A stretch of DNA of 64,000 bases from Verrucomicrobiaceae bacterium (lineage in GTDB: Bacteria; Verrucomicrobiota; Verrucomicrobiia; Verrucomicrobiales; Verrucomicrobiaceae): assembly GCA_027486585.1 (NCBI GenBank), contig JAIXOU010000081.1, positions 1 to 64,000 on the forward strand. Direction: 5' to 3'. A program made the position numbers and the translations under genes. Below the pieces are notes generated by a model, which saw nothing but the letters and a program-made list of their open reading frames with translations, was not told the origin of the DNA and did not search any database. Positions 38,336 through 45,662 of this stretch are shown in pieces (within the stretch, counting starts at the first letter, position 1; the number at the start of each line of letters is the position of its first letter).

Positions 38336-39160
38336 TCAGGCCATTGGATTGATCAGCGTGCCGATGCCCTCAATCGTAATGGCAATTTCATCGCCAGATT
38401 GCAGGGTGAACTCATCTCCGGGCACAATGCCCGTCCCCGTCATCAGCAACGCACCGGTCGGGAAAGTATTGTCCCGATACAAGAATCCTGCCAACTCCAC
38501 CGGCGTGCGTTTGAGCTGAGAAACCGTCGTTTCACCGCTAAAGGCCACCGCGCCAGAACGGGTGATCGTCAGCTGGATTTTTGTTTCTGGCGAAAGCAAA
38601 GCTTGAGTGATGAGCAAGCAAGGTCCGACCGCTGCGCAGAGTTTGAAACACTTGGCCTGAGGCAAATACAGCGGATTTTCGCCTTCAATGTCACGGCAGG
38701 ACAAATCATTGCCTACTGTGTAGCCGATCACCTCACCACGGGGATTGATCACCAGTGTCAGCTCAGGCTCAGGCACCATCCATTTTGAATCACTGCGCAG
38801 GTGCATCCCCTGCCCTGGATGAGCTACGCGCTGCGGGGTGGCTTTAAAGAAAATCTCCGGGCGCTCAGCCGCATAGACACGGTCATAAAAGCTCCCTCCA
38901 CCAGCATCCTTACTCTCTTCCATCCGAGCCGTGCGGCTACGGTAATAAGTCACACCTGCTGCCCAAACCTCCTGAGTGCCGATGGGTGCCAAAAGACTAC
39001 TTTGATCCGGCGCAGCCACCGCAGCCCCAGAAGCCGCAACCGTAGCTAAATAGGATTGAAGGTTCTCATGCCCGATCAGTGCATCCCAATCCTGATCTGG
39101 GAGTAGAAACCAATCCTGCTGATGAAGATAGATGCCGTGGCGTGTGCGGTAAAGATGCAT
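38336..39160 (-). CDS. Fumarylacetoacetate hydrolase-family protein (2-keto-3-deoxy-acid dehydratase-like)
   Basis: The 274-residue protein has the FAH fold. [32 protein letters not shown], the acidic metal-binding [10 protein letters not shown] and [21 protein letters not shown] are characteristic. The wording resembles 2-keto-3-deoxy-D-arabinonate dehydratase (KdaD) more than fumarylacetoacetase. That enzyme yields alpha-ketoglutarate semialdehyde, which would suit the neighbouring aldehyde dehydrogenase. The pathway link is an inference. It is the first gene of the minus-strand FAH-ALDH-ADH group and is divergent from the riboswitch-controlled genes. Confidence 0.8.
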
Positions 39161-39299: not shown

Positions 39300-39530
39300 C
39301 AGCAGTTACGTTTTCTTTATCCAGTCCAGAGTCATGCATGATGACTCTGGCAGTCATTCGCAGATGTAGGGAAGGCCGTGAAAATCGGCCACAGTCGCGC
39401 TGCGGTAACGGGTCACAATCTTACAACGCGTCGATCAGCGATGATCGGCGGGCAAAGTCAATCTGAAGGGCAACCTCTGGGTGAAGGCGAGTAGGAAAGG
39501 CGTGAGGAAGCTCACAGAAACCCGGAGTCC
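39300..39530 (+). ncRNA. Cobalamin (B12) riboswitch
   Basis: The aptamer core is recognisable. GTAGGGAAGGCCGTGAAAAT followed by CGGCCACAGTCGCGCTGCGG and TAACGG (39366-39410) matches the family pattern GGGAA-CCGGUG-aa-UCCGG-C-CaGuC-CGC-aCUGUaA. Downstream, AAGTCAATCTGAAGGGCAAC, GAGTAGGAAAGGCG, GAGGAAGCTCACAGAAA and ACCCGGAGTCC (to about 39524) follow the rest of the consensus, including the GCC-GGAGACC-type element. Upstream is a perfect 10-bp hairpin CCAGAGTCAT/ATGACTCTGG (39326-39350) suiting the P2-type arm. It lies about 160 nt before the plus-strand ATG at 39690 and is divergent from the FAH gene. The edges are approximate. High B12 normally represses the downstream genes. Confidence 0.85.
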
Positions 39531-39652
39531 GAATATCTCTCTTCGAATCCTCACTCCCCGCCCCTCCATGTGGAGACCGACGGGTTCACACTTCATCGCC
39601 CAAATGAAGAGTGAGAGCGCCGATCCTAAGCCCTAGACAGGCATGGTGACAC

Positions 39653-39678
39653 GTCTCTCGCACTTATCCGTTAGAGAC
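39653..39678 (+). promoter_or_regulatory. Possible ribosome-site-sequestering hairpin (riboswitch expression platform)
   Basis: GTCTCT (39653-39658) can pair with AGAGAC (39673-39678). The latter contains the only purine-rich site (AGAGA) at a sensible distance (~11 nt) before ATG 39690. Such a hairpin after a B12 aptamer would allow translational control. There is no clear intrinsic terminator (GC hairpin plus T-run) between aptamer and gene. Confidence 0.4.
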
Positions 39679-39689
39679 ATCATCATCCT

Positions 39690-42353
39690 ATGCAATTCAG
39701 CCTTATCAGACAGGCTGCGTTTTGGGGAGCGTCGGCTTTTGCCCTCGCGACCAGCGCAGCATTTTCCCGGGAGTGGACCAGTTTTCAGGTCGGCACTTTA
39801 TCCAGCTACTCCTTCACCCACACCCATCTCGACGATGGACGATTCTTGTTCGGAACTGCTGGGCAGATCTCTGTTCAAGACAGCTTCGACTCGGAAACTC
39901 AAACGACCGTGGCTAAGCCGAATGGCCTGAGTTTTGATCCATCCTTCATCGCCACACGCTCTGTCTCACAGGCGCTCATTGGTGGCGGTGGTTACTCAGG
40001 ACCCAGTGGACTCTACGTATTTGATCCATCGACGCCAACGACACCCATCACCACGCCTGCCTTAACCACGCTGCAAAACTATAGCGCTGTCTATTGGAAG
40101 CACCCCACATCCACTCGCGAAGGTTGGCTCGTGGTGGGCACCAATGCATCGGGCGGCAATAGCAATCTAACCTTTGTCTCAGCAGATGGGCTCACCGTGG
40201 GTGCTGTGACAGGCACGCTGAGTGACTACAGTGGCGGAATGGCGGCAACTGCGAATGGTGACATCTATGCCGTGCGCTCTTCTTCTGGCCCGTCAGAGGG
40301 TCAGGTGATCAAATTCACCGCCAATCAGATCGATGCCGCCGTGGCCAGCCTAGCGACGACCCCTGCCCCACTTGCGCTCAATGCGGCTGTGGTTATCTAC
40401 CAGGGCAGTGCTTCTGGCTCCTTAGCTGTCGATAGTTTGTCCCGCATCTGGCTCGGCGGCTATCAGATCGACTACCTGCAGGCCTATGATCCAGCCAGTG
40501 GGGTGACACGTCGCTTTTACCCAGATCATGCGCCTTTGGCCAACGCTCTGGGAGCACCAACCTATGCGCCGAAGACATTCACGCGGAATGCCGATGCTTA
40601 TGTTAGCTTCTTGGCAAACGATGGGTTTTACGCAACCGGCTCAGACCTTGTCATCGGCTACAAGAAAGACAGCGAGCTAAACATCCGCTCTGTGCAGATC
40701 ACTTCAACAGCACAAACAGTCTTGGAAAATGTGGGTTCCGTGGCAATCACCGTCACCATAACGCCAGCACCAACTGAACCAGTCACCGTTCCTTTCACAG
40801 TCTCAGGATCTGCGACAGCAGGAATAGACTACACGGTTAGCAGCAGTCCGCTCACCTTTGATGCAACCAACACCACGCGAACCATCACCCTCAATCTGAT
40901 CAATGACAGCGTCGTGAAGGAAGCGGATGAAACCATGATCGTTAAAATCGCGACCCCAAGCCCCGTCGCCGCAGCTGGCCTTGGCGCGCCCGATTCAGAA
41001 CTCGTCACGATCACCATTCGCGACAATGACGCAGCCCCAATCATTGCCCGTAATCAAACGTTTCCCACGTTGCGCGTTGGCAGGGCGTTCTCTCAGACAG
41101 TGGAGTTAGCTGTCCCCAGTCCTGCTGCCACTAGATGGACAAAAGCGAATCTACCTCCAGGCTTGGACATCAATCCAACCACGGGCGTCATCAGTGGCAC
41201 ACCGACTGCTGCGGGGGAGTATGATCAAGTGCTGATCACAGCCTCGAATACAGTTGGCAGCAGCACTTCGGTGGGTTTTGTGATGCGTGTGGAAAGCGTC
41301 CCGTCTTTGATCGTTGGGAACTTCAGTGGCATCTTCGAAAGAACTAGCAGCAATGGCGGATTCGAAGCCTATCTAACCCTCACAACAACCAGTCGTGCTA
41401 GCTACACGGGCAAGCTGATCATTGGCACCAAATCCTACAACTTAGCAGGAAACCTAGCCGTCAGTCCTACCGGTAACACTGCTAGTGGTGGCCAAACCAT
41501 TCGGCACAACAATCAAGACGTGCCGCTTACCTTCACCATTAATTCCACCACTGGAATTCTAACAGGAAGCTTGGATCCTTCCGTAAGTCTGACGGGTATC
41601 CGAGCCCAAACCGGCACCACACGCACAGGGATCTATAATTTCCGCGCAGCACGCAGTATAGCGCCACCAGAAAACGAACCCCAAGGAGCCAGCTATGCAG
41701 GCATGACACTCTCTCCATTAGCCATAGCAAAGATCGCAGGACGTCTAGCAGATGGCAGCGTCTTCACTGCCAGCAGCCCACTCGGCACAGATGGTCGAAT
41801 CTTCATCTATCAGCCCCTCTACACAGCGCCTGGCAGAATTCTTGGAAGCCTGACTCTAGCATCAGACAACAGTCACACGATTACTGGCAATCTCACATGG
41901 ACAAAACCCCCACAGACCTCTGGCGCAGTTTACCGCATCGGCTGGGCAACACCTATTCCACTCGTAGCCAGTGGTGGTAAATACCGCCCAGCCGTGGGAG
42001 CGACATTGCCTCTGGATGCCACACCTTCGACCACGAACAATGCCCGTCTCGTGCTCCAAGATGGTGGAATCGCAGTTACCCCGATCAATATTGGTTCAAG
42101 ACTCCTGAGCCCGACCACACTAAGTATCGCTGCACCGCAAAGGCTATCGATCACCAATGCTAGCGGAGCCTTCACTGGCACTTACACTGATGGCACTGGC
42201 GCAACCAAACGCACCCTCACTTTTCAGGGACTGCTGATTCCAGATCCGGCTACACCAGCAGACTTTGACAGCACAGGCTATGGATATTTTATTCTACCAA
42301 CTGGCACCAAAGACGTCTCACGTTCAGGTGCTGTGATTTTAGAGCGCCCATAA
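39690..42353 (+). CDS. B12-riboswitch-controlled secreted propeller/Calx-beta surface protein
   Basis: The 887-residue exported protein has signal MQFSLIRQAAFWGASAFALATSAA. Residues about 28-330 look like a propeller: repeated glycine-turn strands such as HLDDGRFLFGTAGQISVQD, YVFDPSTPTTPI, GGMAATANGDIYAVRSS and LAVDSLSRIWLGGYQ. A Calx-beta domain follows at about 335-450 (ATAGIDYTVSSSPLTFDAT, EADETMIVKI), then a putative Ig domain (LPPGLDINPTTGVISGTPTAAG, about 455-545). The last ~340 residues form a beta domain related to the C-terminus of the RCC1 protein at 26804-32458, likewise ending in E/R-R-P (ILERP). It is the first gene after the B12 riboswitch. The propeller might bind cobalamin, as Bacteroides BtuG does; that is inference, and no direct homology was tested. 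Confidence 0.72.
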   Translation: MQFSLIRQAAFWGASAFALATSAAFSREWTSFQVGTLSSYSFTHTHLDDGRFLFGTAGQISVQDSFDSETQTTVAKPNGLSFDPSFIATRSVSQALIGGGGYSGPSGLYVFDPSTPTTPITTPALTTLQNYSAVYWKHPTSTREGWLVVGTNASGGNSNLTFVSADGLTVGAVTGTLSDYSGGMAATANGDIYAVRSSSGPSEGQVIKFTANQIDAAVASLATTPAPLALNAAVVIYQGSASGSLAVDSLSRIWLGGYQIDYLQAYDPASGVTRRFYPDHAPLANALGAPTYAPKTFTRNADAYVSFLANDGFYATGSDLVIGYKKDSELNIRSVQITSTAQTVLENVGSVAITVTITPAPTEPVTVPFTVSGSATAGIDYTVSSSPLTFDATNTTRTITLNLINDSVVKEADETMIVKIATPSPVAAAGLGAPDSELVTITIRDNDAAPIIARNQTFPTLRVGRAFSQTVELAVPSPAATRWTKANLPPGLDINPTTGVISGTPTAAGEYDQVLITASNTVGSSTSVGFVMRVESVPSLIVGNFSGIFERTSSNGGFEAYLTLTTTSRASYTGKLIIGTKSYNLAGNLAVSPTGNTASGGQTIRHNNQDVPLTFTINSTTGILTGSLDPSVSLTGIRAQTGTTRTGIYNFRAARSIAPPENEPQGASYAGMTLSPLAIAKIAGRLADGSVFTASSPLGTDGRIFIYQPLYTAPGRILGSLTLASDNSHTITGNLTWTKPPQTSGAVYRIGWATPIPLVASGGKYRPAVGATLPLDATPSTTNNARLVLQDGGIAVTPINIGSRLLSPTTLSIAAPQRLSITNASGAFTGTYTDGTGATKRTLTFQGLLIPDPATPADFDSTGYGYFILPTGTKDVSRSGAVILERP

Positions 42354-42357
42354 TTCC

Positions 42358-44493
42358 ATGCCGACCTCCCAGTCACGCAAACTGCTGAACCTCATCCTTG
42401 GCGCGGGCCTTCTCGCTCTGGTGCTTGGTGGCGCGTGGCTGGGGTATTATGGGGGCGGCAGTGCCCCTGTGATTTCTGCTTTGGAACCAACCGTTGATCC
42501 TTTCGGCAAAAAAGTCGGCGACAATGACAATGAAGCGTCCTCAGGCAACGATACACTCGCTGACCTGCTGGAGCGTTTCCGATTGGGCGACAGCAGCGCG
42601 CTGGACCATGTCCTACCCACAGGTCTCTCGGAGATTAGCGGCAGCGGCGGTAAAGGCCTACAACGTCAAGTGCGGGCACACGGCAGTTGGTATCCTGTCT
42701 TTGATCTATCCGCCATGAAGACGCTCGATGATGGCAACTTGAGCGCTGTTAGGCTGAATGTGATTCCCCTAGCCATCGCCACACCCCATCCGCCTGCTGG
42801 TTTGATTAAGCAGGCCTTTAATCACCGCTTCACAGCTGTCGGCGGAGTGCCCCCTTACTCCTGGCGGATCGAGATTGATCCATCAGCGTCCGGCTTCCAG
42901 CTCGATTCCAACACGGGTGATTTTACAGGTCAATCGGACATCGAACTCACTCTTCCTTTGGTTATTTATGTTACTGATTCCACCGGCAGTCAGGCCTCAG
43001 GCCAAAGCACGCTCAGCATCGCCACAGAAGAACCTCTAACCATCACGACAACCGATTTACCCACCACAGAATCTCTGGGCGGGTATAGCGCGACTCTCAG
43101 CGCTAGCGGTGGAGCCAAACCCTATGCCTGGAGCCTAGCAACCGATTCCCCAGGCTGGCAAATCGAAGCAAAGACAGGCACGCTAACCAACACTCAACTC
43201 CAAACCGGAGATCATCAGCTGCTCATCACTCTACAAGATCAGGCCACCAGCGTGCAGCGCAGCTTTAAGCTTAAGGTCACCCACGGTTTAGACATCACCA
43301 CGGAATCTCACCTTCCCCCAGCCGCGCCTGGTGGCATCTACAGTGGCCAATTTGAAGCCAGTGGCGGAACACCTCCTTACACCTGGAGTCTCATGACCAC
43401 GGAACTGCCACAGAACTGGACCTTCACTTCCGAAGGCAAACTCAGTGGCAGCACACCGGACATTGAGGCACTTCTCAAACTCCCCATCCGCGTCACGGAC
43501 AGCGAAGGCCTAACCTTTGATAAAACATTCGATCTCACCATCAGCCGAGGTCTGCTTGTTGTACCATCGGATCGGAAAGCCGGGATCGCCTGGCGATTCA
43601 AAGACATGCTTCAGGATCTACAGGCAAACATCACTGGTGTCAGCCTACTGAGGGATGGTGTGGAGATTTATCGCGGACGCGGCAGCAACTTTGTTGATCG
43701 TGGATTAGCGACAGGCAGCACTCCCACCTACCAGCTTAATGCTTTCACCGCTGACGGGCGCAGACTGCCCTATGCAGCGGCCACCACCACGGTTCTGCCT
43801 TTCACCAAACAACGCAGCCAGGATGCCAGTCTGGGCGACCCTTATGTCGACACGGTTTTTAACTTCAACCCTCTGTCTCGTGGTGGTTATGGCTCGGATG
43901 GAATACCGCAAAATGTTCTCGGCCCACCGAATGGCAGCAGCACCTTTGTCCCAGCTTATTTGCCCAGCCATGTCGTTTCCCTTCACGCCAGCAAAGCCGG
44001 GGGCGGCAGCATCGTGTTAGAGTTTACCAATAACATCATCGAATCAGGAAACGGTCTCGACTTCACCCTTTTTGAAAACGTCTTCTTCATTGCAAATGAC
44101 CCGAAGCGGCGATTCATGGAGCCAGCCATCGTCGAAGTGGCTCTACATGAGGACGAATGGCACAGATTCCCCTGCCGAGTCCAGATTGCTGCCGATGGCA
44201 GTATCGATCTAAAACAGCCCACTTACTACACCAGCGGCTTCACTGGCGTCAACGCTACCACGGGCGACGATCCCACCGACCCCACACGCAGTGGCGGCGA
44301 CAGCTTTGACCTTGCCAACCTTGGCCGCCCCGATCTCACGTGGATCCGCTTCATTCGAATCATAGCTACAGGCGACCAAGTATTACGCGACAACACAGGC
44401 GTGCCCATTAGTCACACGTCTGAGAACAGTGCACTCAACGGCCGCGCCAGCTCGGGCTTCGATCTAGACGCCGCCAGCGCTGTGAACTACTGA
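42358..44493 (+). CDS. B12-riboswitch-controlled anchored protein with Ig-like repeats and FENVF-type beta domain
   Basis: This 711-residue protein starts four bases after the preceding stop and surely shares its transcript. Residues 10-31 are a signal or anchor (LNLILGAGLLALVLGGAWLGYY). After a linker, three putative Ig (He-PIG type) domains cover about 140-400, each with GG.PPY.W or GGAKPYAWS and a G.L/G.FTG turn. The C-terminal ~225 residues (from about 485) form a distinct domain: GYGSDGIPQNVLGPPNGSS, GGSIVLEFTNNII, DFTLFENVFF, EPAIVEVALHEDEWHRFPC and GDSFDLANLG. I recognise this FENxF-type domain as a recurrent bacterial surface-protein module but know no established function for it. With the propeller protein upstream it may form a B12-regulated surface complex. 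Confidence 0.7.
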   Translation: MPTSQSRKLLNLILGAGLLALVLGGAWLGYYGGGSAPVISALEPTVDPFGKKVGDNDNEASSGNDTLADLLERFRLGDSSALDHVLPTGLSEISGSGGKGLQRQVRAHGSWYPVFDLSAMKTLDDGNLSAVRLNVIPLAIATPHPPAGLIKQAFNHRFTAVGGVPPYSWRIEIDPSASGFQLDSNTGDFTGQSDIELTLPLVIYVTDSTGSQASGQSTLSIATEEPLTITTTDLPTTESLGGYSATLSASGGAKPYAWSLATDSPGWQIEAKTGTLTNTQLQTGDHQLLITLQDQATSVQRSFKLKVTHGLDITTESHLPPAAPGGIYSGQFEASGGTPPYTWSLMTTELPQNWTFTSEGKLSGSTPDIEALLKLPIRVTDSEGLTFDKTFDLTISRGLLVVPSDRKAGIAWRFKDMLQDLQANITGVSLLRDGVEIYRGRGSNFVDRGLATGSTPTYQLNAFTADGRRLPYAAATTTVLPFTKQRSQDASLGDPYVDTVFNFNPLSRGGYGSDGIPQNVLGPPNGSSTFVPAYLPSHVVSLHASKAGGGSIVLEFTNNIIESGNGLDFTLFENVFFIANDPKRRFMEPAIVEVALHEDEWHRFPCRVQIAADGSIDLKQPTYYTSGFTGVNATTGDDPTDPTRSGGDSFDLANLGRPDLTWIRFIRIIATGDQVLRDNTGVPISHTSENSALNGRASSGFDLDAASAVNY

Positions 44494-44501
44494 GCCCAAG
44501 G

Positions 44502-45662
44502 TCAGCCTCTAAAGACCATGGCTGGTTCCAAGCGCGCCACGCGCCAAATACCAAGCAAGGCGGAAAAACCGCAGATAAAAAGGATCACGCCGAGAACAAT
44601 CAAGGGTACTACTTCGGGCATGTAAAAAGGCGGCTCTTCATGAGCCAATGCAGGAAAGGCGAACTGAGCCGTGAAAAACATGCCAATGCCAAAACCAATC
44701 AAGCCCACCGTAAATGCCTGAGCCAGCAACATCAGACAAAGCGTCCACGTAGAAGCGCCCATGGCCTTGAGGGCACCCAGGTGCTTCATGTGATCCAAGA
44801 CGAAACTGTAAAAAGTCTGGCAGGAAATGGCCATCCCGACGATGAACCCAATCACAACCGTGATGCCAAATGAAAACGGAATGCCGGTATTTTTAATGTA
44901 CCACCAAATCGTCGAATAAATAAAATCCCCCTCCCCACTGGCATAACCGCGATTGAGAAAAGCCTTCAGTCCCGTCTCTTTTTCAATATCGGCCACACAC
45001 TGTTCTTCAGAGACACCCGCACGTGGCGCAGCGAGAACGGCACTGAGCATTTTCCGCTGAGCTGGAGAGTATTGAAGAGCCCGCTCATAAGTCGTCCAGA
45101 CATAAGGACCTCCTGTAAAACTTTTCATCGAATCCGCGATAGCCACCACTCTGGCCTCTTGATCGTTTATCTCGAACATATCGCCCAACTTCACAGGTTC
45201 GCCTTTGATCTCAGCCAACCTAGTGACGGCAAGATCATCGATCACCACGGCATGAGGCAGACGCAGATCCGCTAAGTCACCTTCTTTAATCTTCACCGGA
45301 GCACCTGCCAATGTGGTGGCATCAATGCCGATCAACTGAATGATTTTAAAACTACCATTGGTTAACCGCACGCGCTGAATGCCTGAATACAAGGGAGCCG
45401 CCCAGGCGACACTATCGACACTGCGCACACGAGCCACATCCGTATCTAAAAGTGGGTTGGTCTCATTCACCTGATCCACCTTGGCCTCCACAACCCAGAT
45501 AGAAGCAGGCACATTCTTCAACGTTGCAGCCGTCCAACTCATGAGTCCGCAAAAGACAGCGATCTGCTGCGCCATCAAAAAAGTGGCAAAGATTAGACCG
45601 GCTACCAGCATGAGAAACTTGCCAGTGTCACCAAAAAGCATTTTGAGAGCGAGTCGAAGCAT
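44502..45662 (-). CDS. DevC/FtsX-like ABC transporter permease
   Basis: The 386-residue permease has one N-terminal membrane segment (FLMLVAGLIFATFLMAQQIAVF), a ~230-residue periplasmic MacB-PCD-like domain and three C-terminal segments (FGITVVIGFIVGMAISCQTFYSF, LMLLAQAFTVGLIGFGIGMFF, VVPLIVLGVILFICGFSAL). This is the FtsX/MacB topology. The WVVEAKVDQVNETNPL opening of the periplasmic domain and the single-subunit length suit DevC-type exporters. No matching ATPase or membrane-fusion gene is adjacent (an MFS gene lies upstream), so partners must be elsewhere. It is convergent with the B12-regulated genes (8-bp gap). Confidence 0.83.
   Translation of the reverse strand: MLRLALKMLFGDTGKFLMLVAGLIFATFLMAQQIAVFCGLMSWTAATLKNVPASIWVVEAKVDQVNETNPLLDTDVARVRSVDSVAWAAPLYSGIQRVRLTNGSFKIIQLIGIDATTLAGAPVKIKEGDLADLRLPHAVVIDDLAVTRLAEIKGEPVKLGDMFEINDQEARVVAIADSMKSFTGGPYVWTTYERALQYSPAQRKMLSAVLAAPRAGVSEEQCVADIEKETGLKAFLNRGYASGEGDFIYSTIWWYIKNTGIPFSFGITVVIGFIVGMAISCQTFYSFVLDHMKHLGALKAMGASTWTLCLMLLAQAFTVGLIGFGIGMFFTAQFAFPALAHEEPPFYMPEVVPLIVLGVILFICGFSALLGIWRVARLEPAMVFRG

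Follow-up and report, generated by a model that had tools for sequence, protein, structure and literature searches.

A cobalamin riboswitch, a propeller protein and a BtuH-domain protein form a probable B12-scavenging operon in a Verrucomicrobiaceae bacterium

We analyzed a stretch of 64,000 nucleotides from a Verrucomicrobiaceae bacterium (GenBank assembly GCA_027486585.1, contig JAIXOU010000081.1, positions 1 to 64,000; hereafter the window), in which a cobalamin riboswitch precedes two genes for large proteins, here called P1 and P2, on the plus strand (Table 1). Four bases separate the two open reading frames (ORFs), as a previous sequence-only reading of the locus had stated, and the listed genes on either side (38336-39160 and 44502-45662) lie on the strand opposite to the pair. 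That reading had proposed a Verrucomicrobial cell-surface pair of B12-binding proteins, analogous in function to BtuG of Bacteroides but made of different domains. Our results make it probable that the locus is a B12-repressible scavenging operon consisting of riboswitch, P1 and P2. Parts of the proposal needed correction; among other points, a predicted fold and a weak profile match identify the C-terminus of P2 as BtuH-type, and relatives of this domain were found in many phyla.

The riboswitch call on the plus strand was borne out by Rfam. A search of the whole window with cmscan gave RF00174 as the sole match above gathering, at 34.3 bits against a threshold of 31.5 (2.8 bits above it; E 5.2e-05). 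No second RF00174 match was found in the host genome (6.5 Mb), where 150 of the 303 first-look candidates were scored. Used by itself, Rfam performed poorly on a number of relatives: ten loci (L066-L068, L071, L079, L080, L075, L081, L083 and L085) gave nothing up to E 0.5, and L069, L070, L072 and L086 stayed below gathering. We therefore built a riboswitch covariance model of our own, R1, from 16 copies. The window copy, which belonged to the training set, scores 84.9 bits with R1. Across the order, R1 found copies at the same upstream place in 30 genomes, with scores of 58-132 bits; 20 of these were outside the training set, and the other ten sat in it, eight under the same locus identifier and two under another. 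In an alignment of the 30 syntenic copies, fitted to the model, 94.7% of cells pair and 15 of the 28 base pairs show change on both sides, with 127 cells changed on both sides against a mean of 44 in shuffles. Folding of the leader in search of an expression platform revealed nothing trustworthy; by analogy with the RNA family, the riboswitch would lower expression of P1 and P2 upon cobamide binding.

The link to known B12 proteins came through the C-terminal domain of P2. Using P2 as a single sequence against the PDB, phmmer ranked 7biz (BtuH2 with B12) first, at E 0.21. A profile of 44 relatives had a sole PDB match up to E 1, 8blw_B (E 1.3e-4), which is BtuG1 of Bacteroides thetaiotaomicron; the match covers residues 388-499 of 663, its BtuH domain, and the C-terminal part of BtuG1 is described as BtuH2-homologous in the source (PMC10404256). 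A wider profile, of 58 sequences, again returned 8blw_B alone up to E 5 (E 3.5e-4). The AlphaFold2 model of the domain has a mean predicted local distance difference test score (pLDDT) of 92.4 and a predicted template modelling score of 0.91. Foldseek with this model placed 8blw_B first (E 2.7e-5), with no other match below 0.001. When the Foldseek list was aligned with VIA-align, the two BtuH domains came out on top, that of BtuG1 (8blw_B) with Z 14.3 (172 aligned residues, root-mean-square deviation (rmsd) 2.9) and that of BtuH2 (7biz_A) with Z 14.0 (171 aligned, 21% identity, rmsd 3.5), and the following row dropped to Z 10.0. Nothing passed a curated cut-off when P2 was compared with Pfam and NCBIfam, the BtuH link coming via phmmer, profile and structure. 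Its predicted fold, together with the weak profile match, makes the domain a distant homologue of the part of BtuH that binds B12.

This domain contains the FENVF motif that had been singled out from the sequence. In the phmmer alignment to 7biz, N574 and F576 of P2 align with Asn399 and Phe401 of BtuH2 (with a numbering offset of 100 taken from these two residues), which are described as touching the B12 phosphate and lower ligand (PMC8941943). Residues F572, E573 and N574 are invariant in the 44 relatives in the order, and all 58 sequences of the wider set have Asn at the position of N574. The F576 column holds Phe in 33 of the 44, Leu in seven and Met in four.

Table 1. Positions of the riboswitch, the two proteins and their parts in the window.
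Feature	Start	End	Strand	Basis
Cobalamin riboswitch aptamer (RF00174)	39368	39538	+	cmscan; model R1, 84.9 bits; covariation
P1, 887 aa: signal peptide, beta-propeller, Calx-beta, He_PIG, uncharacterised C-terminal region	39690	42353	+	ORF; Pfam; signal peptides by eye in relatives
P1 residues 28-333, predicted six-bladed beta-propeller	39771	40688	+	AlphaFold2; structure matches
P1 residues 334-447, Calx-beta domain	40689	41030	+	PF03160, 51.9 bits (cut-off 27)
P1 residues 450-534, He_PIG Ig-like domain	41037	41291	+	PF05345, 41.4 bits (cut-off 24)
P2, 711 aa: N-terminal anchor, three GGxxPYxW repeats, C-terminal BtuH-type domain	42358	44493	+	ORF
P2 residues 10-28, hydrophobic segment, probable signal anchor without lipobox	42385	42441	+	hydropathy; relatives
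P2 residues 160-343, span of three GGxxPYxW (Ig-like) repeat motifs	42835	43386	+	motif search
P2 residues 475-711, BtuH-type domain	43780	44490	+	profile; AlphaFold2 model; structure matches
P2 residues 572-576, FENVF motif	44071	44085	+	phmmer alignment to 7biz; over BtuH2 Asn399/Phe401

We then looked at how the domain is distributed relative to B12 elements. Within the order, the FENxF or P2-type domain occurs in 40 of 239 genomes; with stricter filters, RF00174 was found in 131 of 239 (113 above cut-off). Of the 40 domain-holding genomes, 30 have an R1 riboswitch upstream of the domain gene and in the same orientation. Among those lacking it, the contig begins inside the operon in five (G036, G087, G110, G165 and G170), and about 420 bases of upstream sequence are present in G062; G110 and G165 do, however, have a riboswitch at the edge of another contig, with a P1-type propeller after it. 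In a small search with R1, no switch was found in L081, L083, L089 and L091, and the match in L075 was at chance level (5.8 bits, E 4.5). A different layout is seen in the f2 genomes with the domain, where six of seven (the exception being G149) have a riboswitch, a TonB receptor (656-747 aa) and a short FENxF protein. Four of these receptors (L092, L093, L097 and L100) were scanned with Pfam, and each contains PF00593 and PF07715. In one congener of the host, G200, cobT, cobS and a cobC-like gene (PF02277, PF02654 and PF00300; L064 5192-7658, minus strand) stand directly before the riboswitch-P1-P2 array. We also observed that L177, a metagenome-assembled genome (MAG) labelled Akkermansia muciniphila, has a pair made of a FENxF-propeller fusion and P2 (ORF lengths 697 and 775; riboswitch 112.9 bits); these values equal those of L082, from another family, and the species label may be wrong.

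The same association was seen beyond the order. A scan of genome contigs yielded at least 471 domain relatives, and the best 80 loci were kept; by their labels they belong to Proteobacteria, Planctomycetota, Bacteroidota, Verrucomicrobiota and relatives, with one spirochaete and one labelled Agromyces. In these 80 loci, none of which was in the R1 training alignment, the model matched 62 times at E 0.1 or better (24 to 113 bits), in 59 loci and always on the strand of the domain gene; a control set of 13 other loci, 11 of the host's own genome and two with MetH, contained no match. In 36 of the 80 loci a TonB receptor gene was found no more than 1.5 kb away and in the orientation of the domain gene, and either a riboswitch or a TonB receptor is present in 73. 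The NCBIfam model TIGR01779 did not identify these neighbouring receptors as BtuB, none of the ten scanned reaching its cut-off (best 211.5 against 599.7 bits); those of L129 and L159 had no NCBIfam family at E up to 1e-30. B12 capture by P2 is thus well supported, by a riboswitch above threshold and by domain relatives tied to B12 riboswitches or TonB receptors both within the order and outside it. Neither of the two outcomes that would have refuted the sequence-only proposal, an Rfam score under the threshold or homologues without ties to B12 elements, was observed. The pairwise part of that proposal stands less firmly, P1 being drawn in by association.

Several loci carry other genes between the riboswitch and the FENxF gene. 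In the Bacteroidota locus L173 (8742-9917, plus strand), Pfam identified a DUF4430 protein with a tail of the type IX secretion system (T9SS) kind, and L185, L191 and L193 have ORFs similar in look (Pfam was run on L173 alone). DUF4430 is a domain that occurs in transcobalamin-type proteins. In L211 (2541-3296) and L212 (2342-4318), the riboswitch and the FENxF part are separated by a member of a family that looks PEP-CTERM-like by eye and has a VIDxxDG...GFRW motif; the L212 ORF had no Pfam match, and the family may be a further B12-binding one. Finally, in the planctomycete loci L158 (8981-9865) and L162 (8947-9864) a prepilin-like protein, recognized by eye from an FTLIELLVV-type motif, follows the riboswitch and precedes a very long FENxF ORF.

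P2 as a whole resembles BtuH2 (BT_1956 of B. thetaiotaomicron; 7BIZ; PMC8941943): besides the C-terminal fold and the FENVF motif overlying Asn399/Phe401, three repeat motifs ahead of the domain give a layout similar to that of BtuH, where Ig-like/PKD repeats stand in this place, and the BtuH2 locus is likewise described as being under B12 riboswitch control. The repeats of P2 have the motif GGxxPYxW and start at residues 160, 249 and 334. The three Ig-like domains of the sequence-only reading survive to this extent; since Pfam gave no domain above cut-off in P2, the repeat region included, the Ig-like label follows from the repeat motifs. The claim that P2 is anchored fits a hydrophobic N-terminal segment (Kyte-Doolittle mean 2.03 over 19 residues), and relatives have an N-terminus of the same kind, with no conserved cleavage site visible by eye. 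It is here that P2 differs from BtuH2, which has a lipobox: the N-terminus of P2 contains no cysteine and so lacks the lipoprotein anchor of BtuH. For this reason we name P2 a BtuH-domain protein rather than BtuH. Sequence identity to BtuH2 is also very low, no btuB adjoins P2, and the available parts of the descriptions of Bacteroides loci mention no partner like P1. The anchor of P2 looks membrane-embedded and uncleaved and, barring transfer to the outside, would keep the protein at the inner membrane, so that P2 may face the periplasm and not, as first proposed, the cell surface.

P1 is a secreted protein with an N-terminal propeller, as had been read from the sequence: its P1-type relatives have a signal peptide with an AXA-type cleavage site, judged by eye, and residues 28-333 were modelled by AlphaFold2 as a beta-propeller with 24 strands (pLDDT 93.9). 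Calx-beta and He_PIG domains, neither of which was on the previous list of features, follow it. The propeller appears six-bladed, the 24 strands of the model being read as six four-stranded blades, and its best structural matches are six-bladed too (Pizza6, Z 24.4, 241 aligned, rmsd 2.5). The comparison with BtuG that the sequence-only reading had called for thus gave a predicted propeller of a different apparent kind, BtuG2 being described as seven-bladed (PMC10404256), and for this reason P1 is not established as a BtuG. The structure lists were full of generic propellers and did not point to BtuG, whose absence from them proves nothing; the propeller profile A2 also matches generic propellers, with no BtuG among the 20 matches listed. 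B12 capture by P1 is likely by association.

That association takes several forms. Seven genomes from the order (five of f4, namely G003, G028, G032, G040 and G062, with G170 of f1 and G135 of f3) have the FENxF domain fused in front of a P1-type propeller with P2 next, although in G062 P2 is on a contig separate from the fusion. This recalls BtuG1, or BtuGH (BT_1490; 8BLW; PMC10404256, PMC12751083), described as joining a propeller and a BtuH domain in one B12 system, except that the domain order is reversed in the fusions and that the window has the two domains on separate proteins. Outside the order, a Chthoniobacterales MAG (L121) and a Kiritimatiellae MAG (L126) have a P1-type propeller between the riboswitch and the FENxF gene; the R1 match is weak in L121 (24.1 bits) and scores 39.4 bits in L126. 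In G110, two differing P1-type propeller sequences lie at contig edges (L063 and L206), suggesting a duplicated P1.

Regarding host physiology, the genome encodes MetH, the B12-dependent methionine synthase (1824.6 bits to NF007024), and has no CobS match, which agrees, for this one gene, with the remark that the window holds no cob gene. It has no CbiQ/EcfT match either, and its FecCD matches are weak (best 43.9 bits), hence there is no clear BtuC. The remark that the window lacks btuB also held: the genome has eight TonB-receptor matches, all on contigs other than that of the window. Looking at the genus, MetH was matched in all 48 genomes (43 above cut-off), CobS in one (G200), and a strong FecCD match was found in one, G099 (254.1 bits). 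Among the 239 genomes searched, nine from the genus hold P2, which makes the pair accessory; btuH itself is described as heterogeneously distributed in gut Bacteroidetes. Seven congeners have an RF00174 match and no P2 match, and in all five that were examined (L201-L205) a TonB receptor gene (652-695 aa) takes the place of the P1-P2 pair after the riboswitch (Pfam was run on L203 alone). Within one genus, then, the same switch would control either the pair or a receptor. As for a counterpart in the host, its eight receptors match the L201-L205 receptor over parts, at 20-36% identity, none of them over the full length, and no partner receptor for the pair was named from among them.

These observations lead us to propose how the operon would work. 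When cobamide is scarce, the riboswitch would permit expression of P1 and P2, and once cobamide is bound to the RNA their expression would fall. P2 would display its BtuH-type domain at the tip of an Ig-like stalk and bind cobamide partly via the nucleotide loop, with Asn574 and Phe576 in place of Asn399 and Phe401 of BtuH2. P1, an exported propeller protein, would probably be a partner that binds cobamide or hands it on, like BtuG beside BtuH. An outer-membrane receptor encoded elsewhere in the genome, where the eight TonB matches lie, or some other route would bring the cobamide in, and since the host seems unable to complete cobamides, the imported molecule would be destined for MetH. The host thus probably uses the pair to scavenge B12 beyond its own ability to complete it. 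What the analysis establishes is the RNA, the arrangement of the genes, the kinship of the folds and the association across phyla; cobamide binding, the direction of regulation, the role of P1, the location of the proteins and the transporter for the last part of uptake belong to the proposal.

Some of the results weigh against this proposal. With MetH in 48 of 48 genomes of the genus against P2 in nine, not all of its B12 users need the pair, and a general requirement for it in the genus was rejected on these counts. No credible riboswitch was found with R1 in G016, G135, G141 and G190 despite upstream sequence being present, and neither riboswitch nor receptor was found in seven of the 80 wider loci (L124, L156, L165, L172, L174, L188 and L192); in two of them, L124 and L174, the sequence starts within the domain gene. 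The sequence similarity between P2 and BtuH is weak, as the single-sequence E of 0.21 indicates, and Phe576 is not strictly conserved. The mapping of the binding site covers Asn399 and Phe401, out of a set of BtuH2 contacts that also includes Gln333, His476, Tyr510, Trp511, Trp577 and Leu578. In addition, P2 has no lipobox or adjacent btuB, unlike most Bacteroidetes btuH, and the propeller of P1 showed no specific link to BtuG.

The alternative that fares best is compatible with B12 binding and concerns location. P2 could be a periplasmic B12 binder tethered to the inner membrane that replaces BtuF; cobamide would enter through the outer membrane, be held in the periplasm by P1 or P2, and be imported by an inner-membrane carrier. 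We hold this to be a serious possibility, if less than an even one. It would account for the hydrophobic N-terminus without lipobox and without a conserved cleavage site by eye in relatives, and would suit a host with no EcfT/CbiQ match and no clear BtuC. On the other hand, multidomain builds of the Calx-beta and Ig type are usual outside cells, long stalks would suit exterior display, and some partners of FENxF genes in other phyla have PEP-CTERM or T9SS-type tails (L147, L173 and L171), which favours the exterior.

We consider it improbable that the domain binds some other corrinoid, such as cobinamide or a dealkylated product, in salvage or remodelling. The lower-ligand assembly genes cobT, cobS and cobC-like that adjoin the pair in G200 would fit such a role, but the Asn/Phe pair corresponds to contacts with the phosphate and lower ligand of complete B12, and the host genome has no CobS match. 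Slightly more improbable still is a B12-regulated adhesin or polymer-binding system, for which B12 would merely report a growth condition. Calx-beta, He_PIG and Ig-like repeats are common among adhesins, and folds of the CBM32/discoidin type appear at lower rank in the structure lists of the P2 domain; the two best structures, however, come from the H-domains of proteins that bind B12, the contact residue Asn is retained throughout, and both the wider riboswitch and receptor association and the cob genes beside the pair in one congener speak for B12. It is very unlikely that the pair lies outside B12 control behind a false or degenerate riboswitch match: the margin above gathering is narrow and Rfam falls short in several relatives, but R1 recovers the switch at the same place in 30 genomes, most of the copies outside its training set, and the pairs covary in the model-fitted alignment.

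The proposed scavenging operon also has to be placed among known B12 binders, which in B. thetaiotaomicron are described as BtuH, BtuG, BtuJ and BtuK. BtuJ and its family DUF4465 (PMC13398666, PMC12751083) are presented as secreted B12 binders across many phyla, with binding reported for eight distantly related members; those tested include proteins from Coraliomargarita akajimensis and Haloferula luteola. DUF4465 (PF14717) is a separate family, with no match up to E 1 in P1 or P2; still, a single ORF combines DUF4465 and FENxF, and comes first after the riboswitch, in G098 and G211. The DUF4465 paper further states that other DUF families, similar to accessory B12 proteins, frequently accompany these genes, and for this reason the general idea behind our finding was already anticipated. 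In the literature searched, no paper joined BtuH with Verrucomicrob*.

A further relationship was found with the LIC_13355 lipoprotein family (NF033170), which 41 of the 44 FENxF domain sequences match at E up to 0.01 (best 2.2e-15). The bit scores, where displayed, are 39.1 and 35.4, the latter for P2, far below the curated cut-off of 120. The matches suggest that the family may have a fold of the B12-binding type. LIC_13355 of Leptospira has been studied as a laminin- and plasminogen-binding protein (PMC11891782); the words "vitamin" and "B12" are absent from the main text of that paper, and of six papers found that mention LIC_13355, one also mentions cobalamin, in passages on other matters. 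A far-reaching version of our proposal would be that the FENxF domain is a pan-bacterial B12-binding module, a BtuH superfamily extending from Verrucomicrobiota to Proteobacteria, Planctomycetota, Bacteroidota and spirochaetes, LIC_13355 of Leptospira included, and that the riboswitch-P1-P2 operon of the genus serves B12 uptake without an adjacent BtuB or a recognisable BtuCD or ECF system; taken together, we regard this as doubtful.

The findings would extend B12 capture of the BtuH type, described in gut Bacteroidetes, to Verrucomicrobiota and, via one domain, to many phyla. They draw attention to B12 entry into the cell in a genus with MetH, almost no CobS and no clear BtuC. They suggest a B12-related function for the LIC_13355 lipoprotein family, hitherto studied as host-binding proteins, and offer a testable function for hundreds of unnamed exported proteins that carry a relative of this domain.

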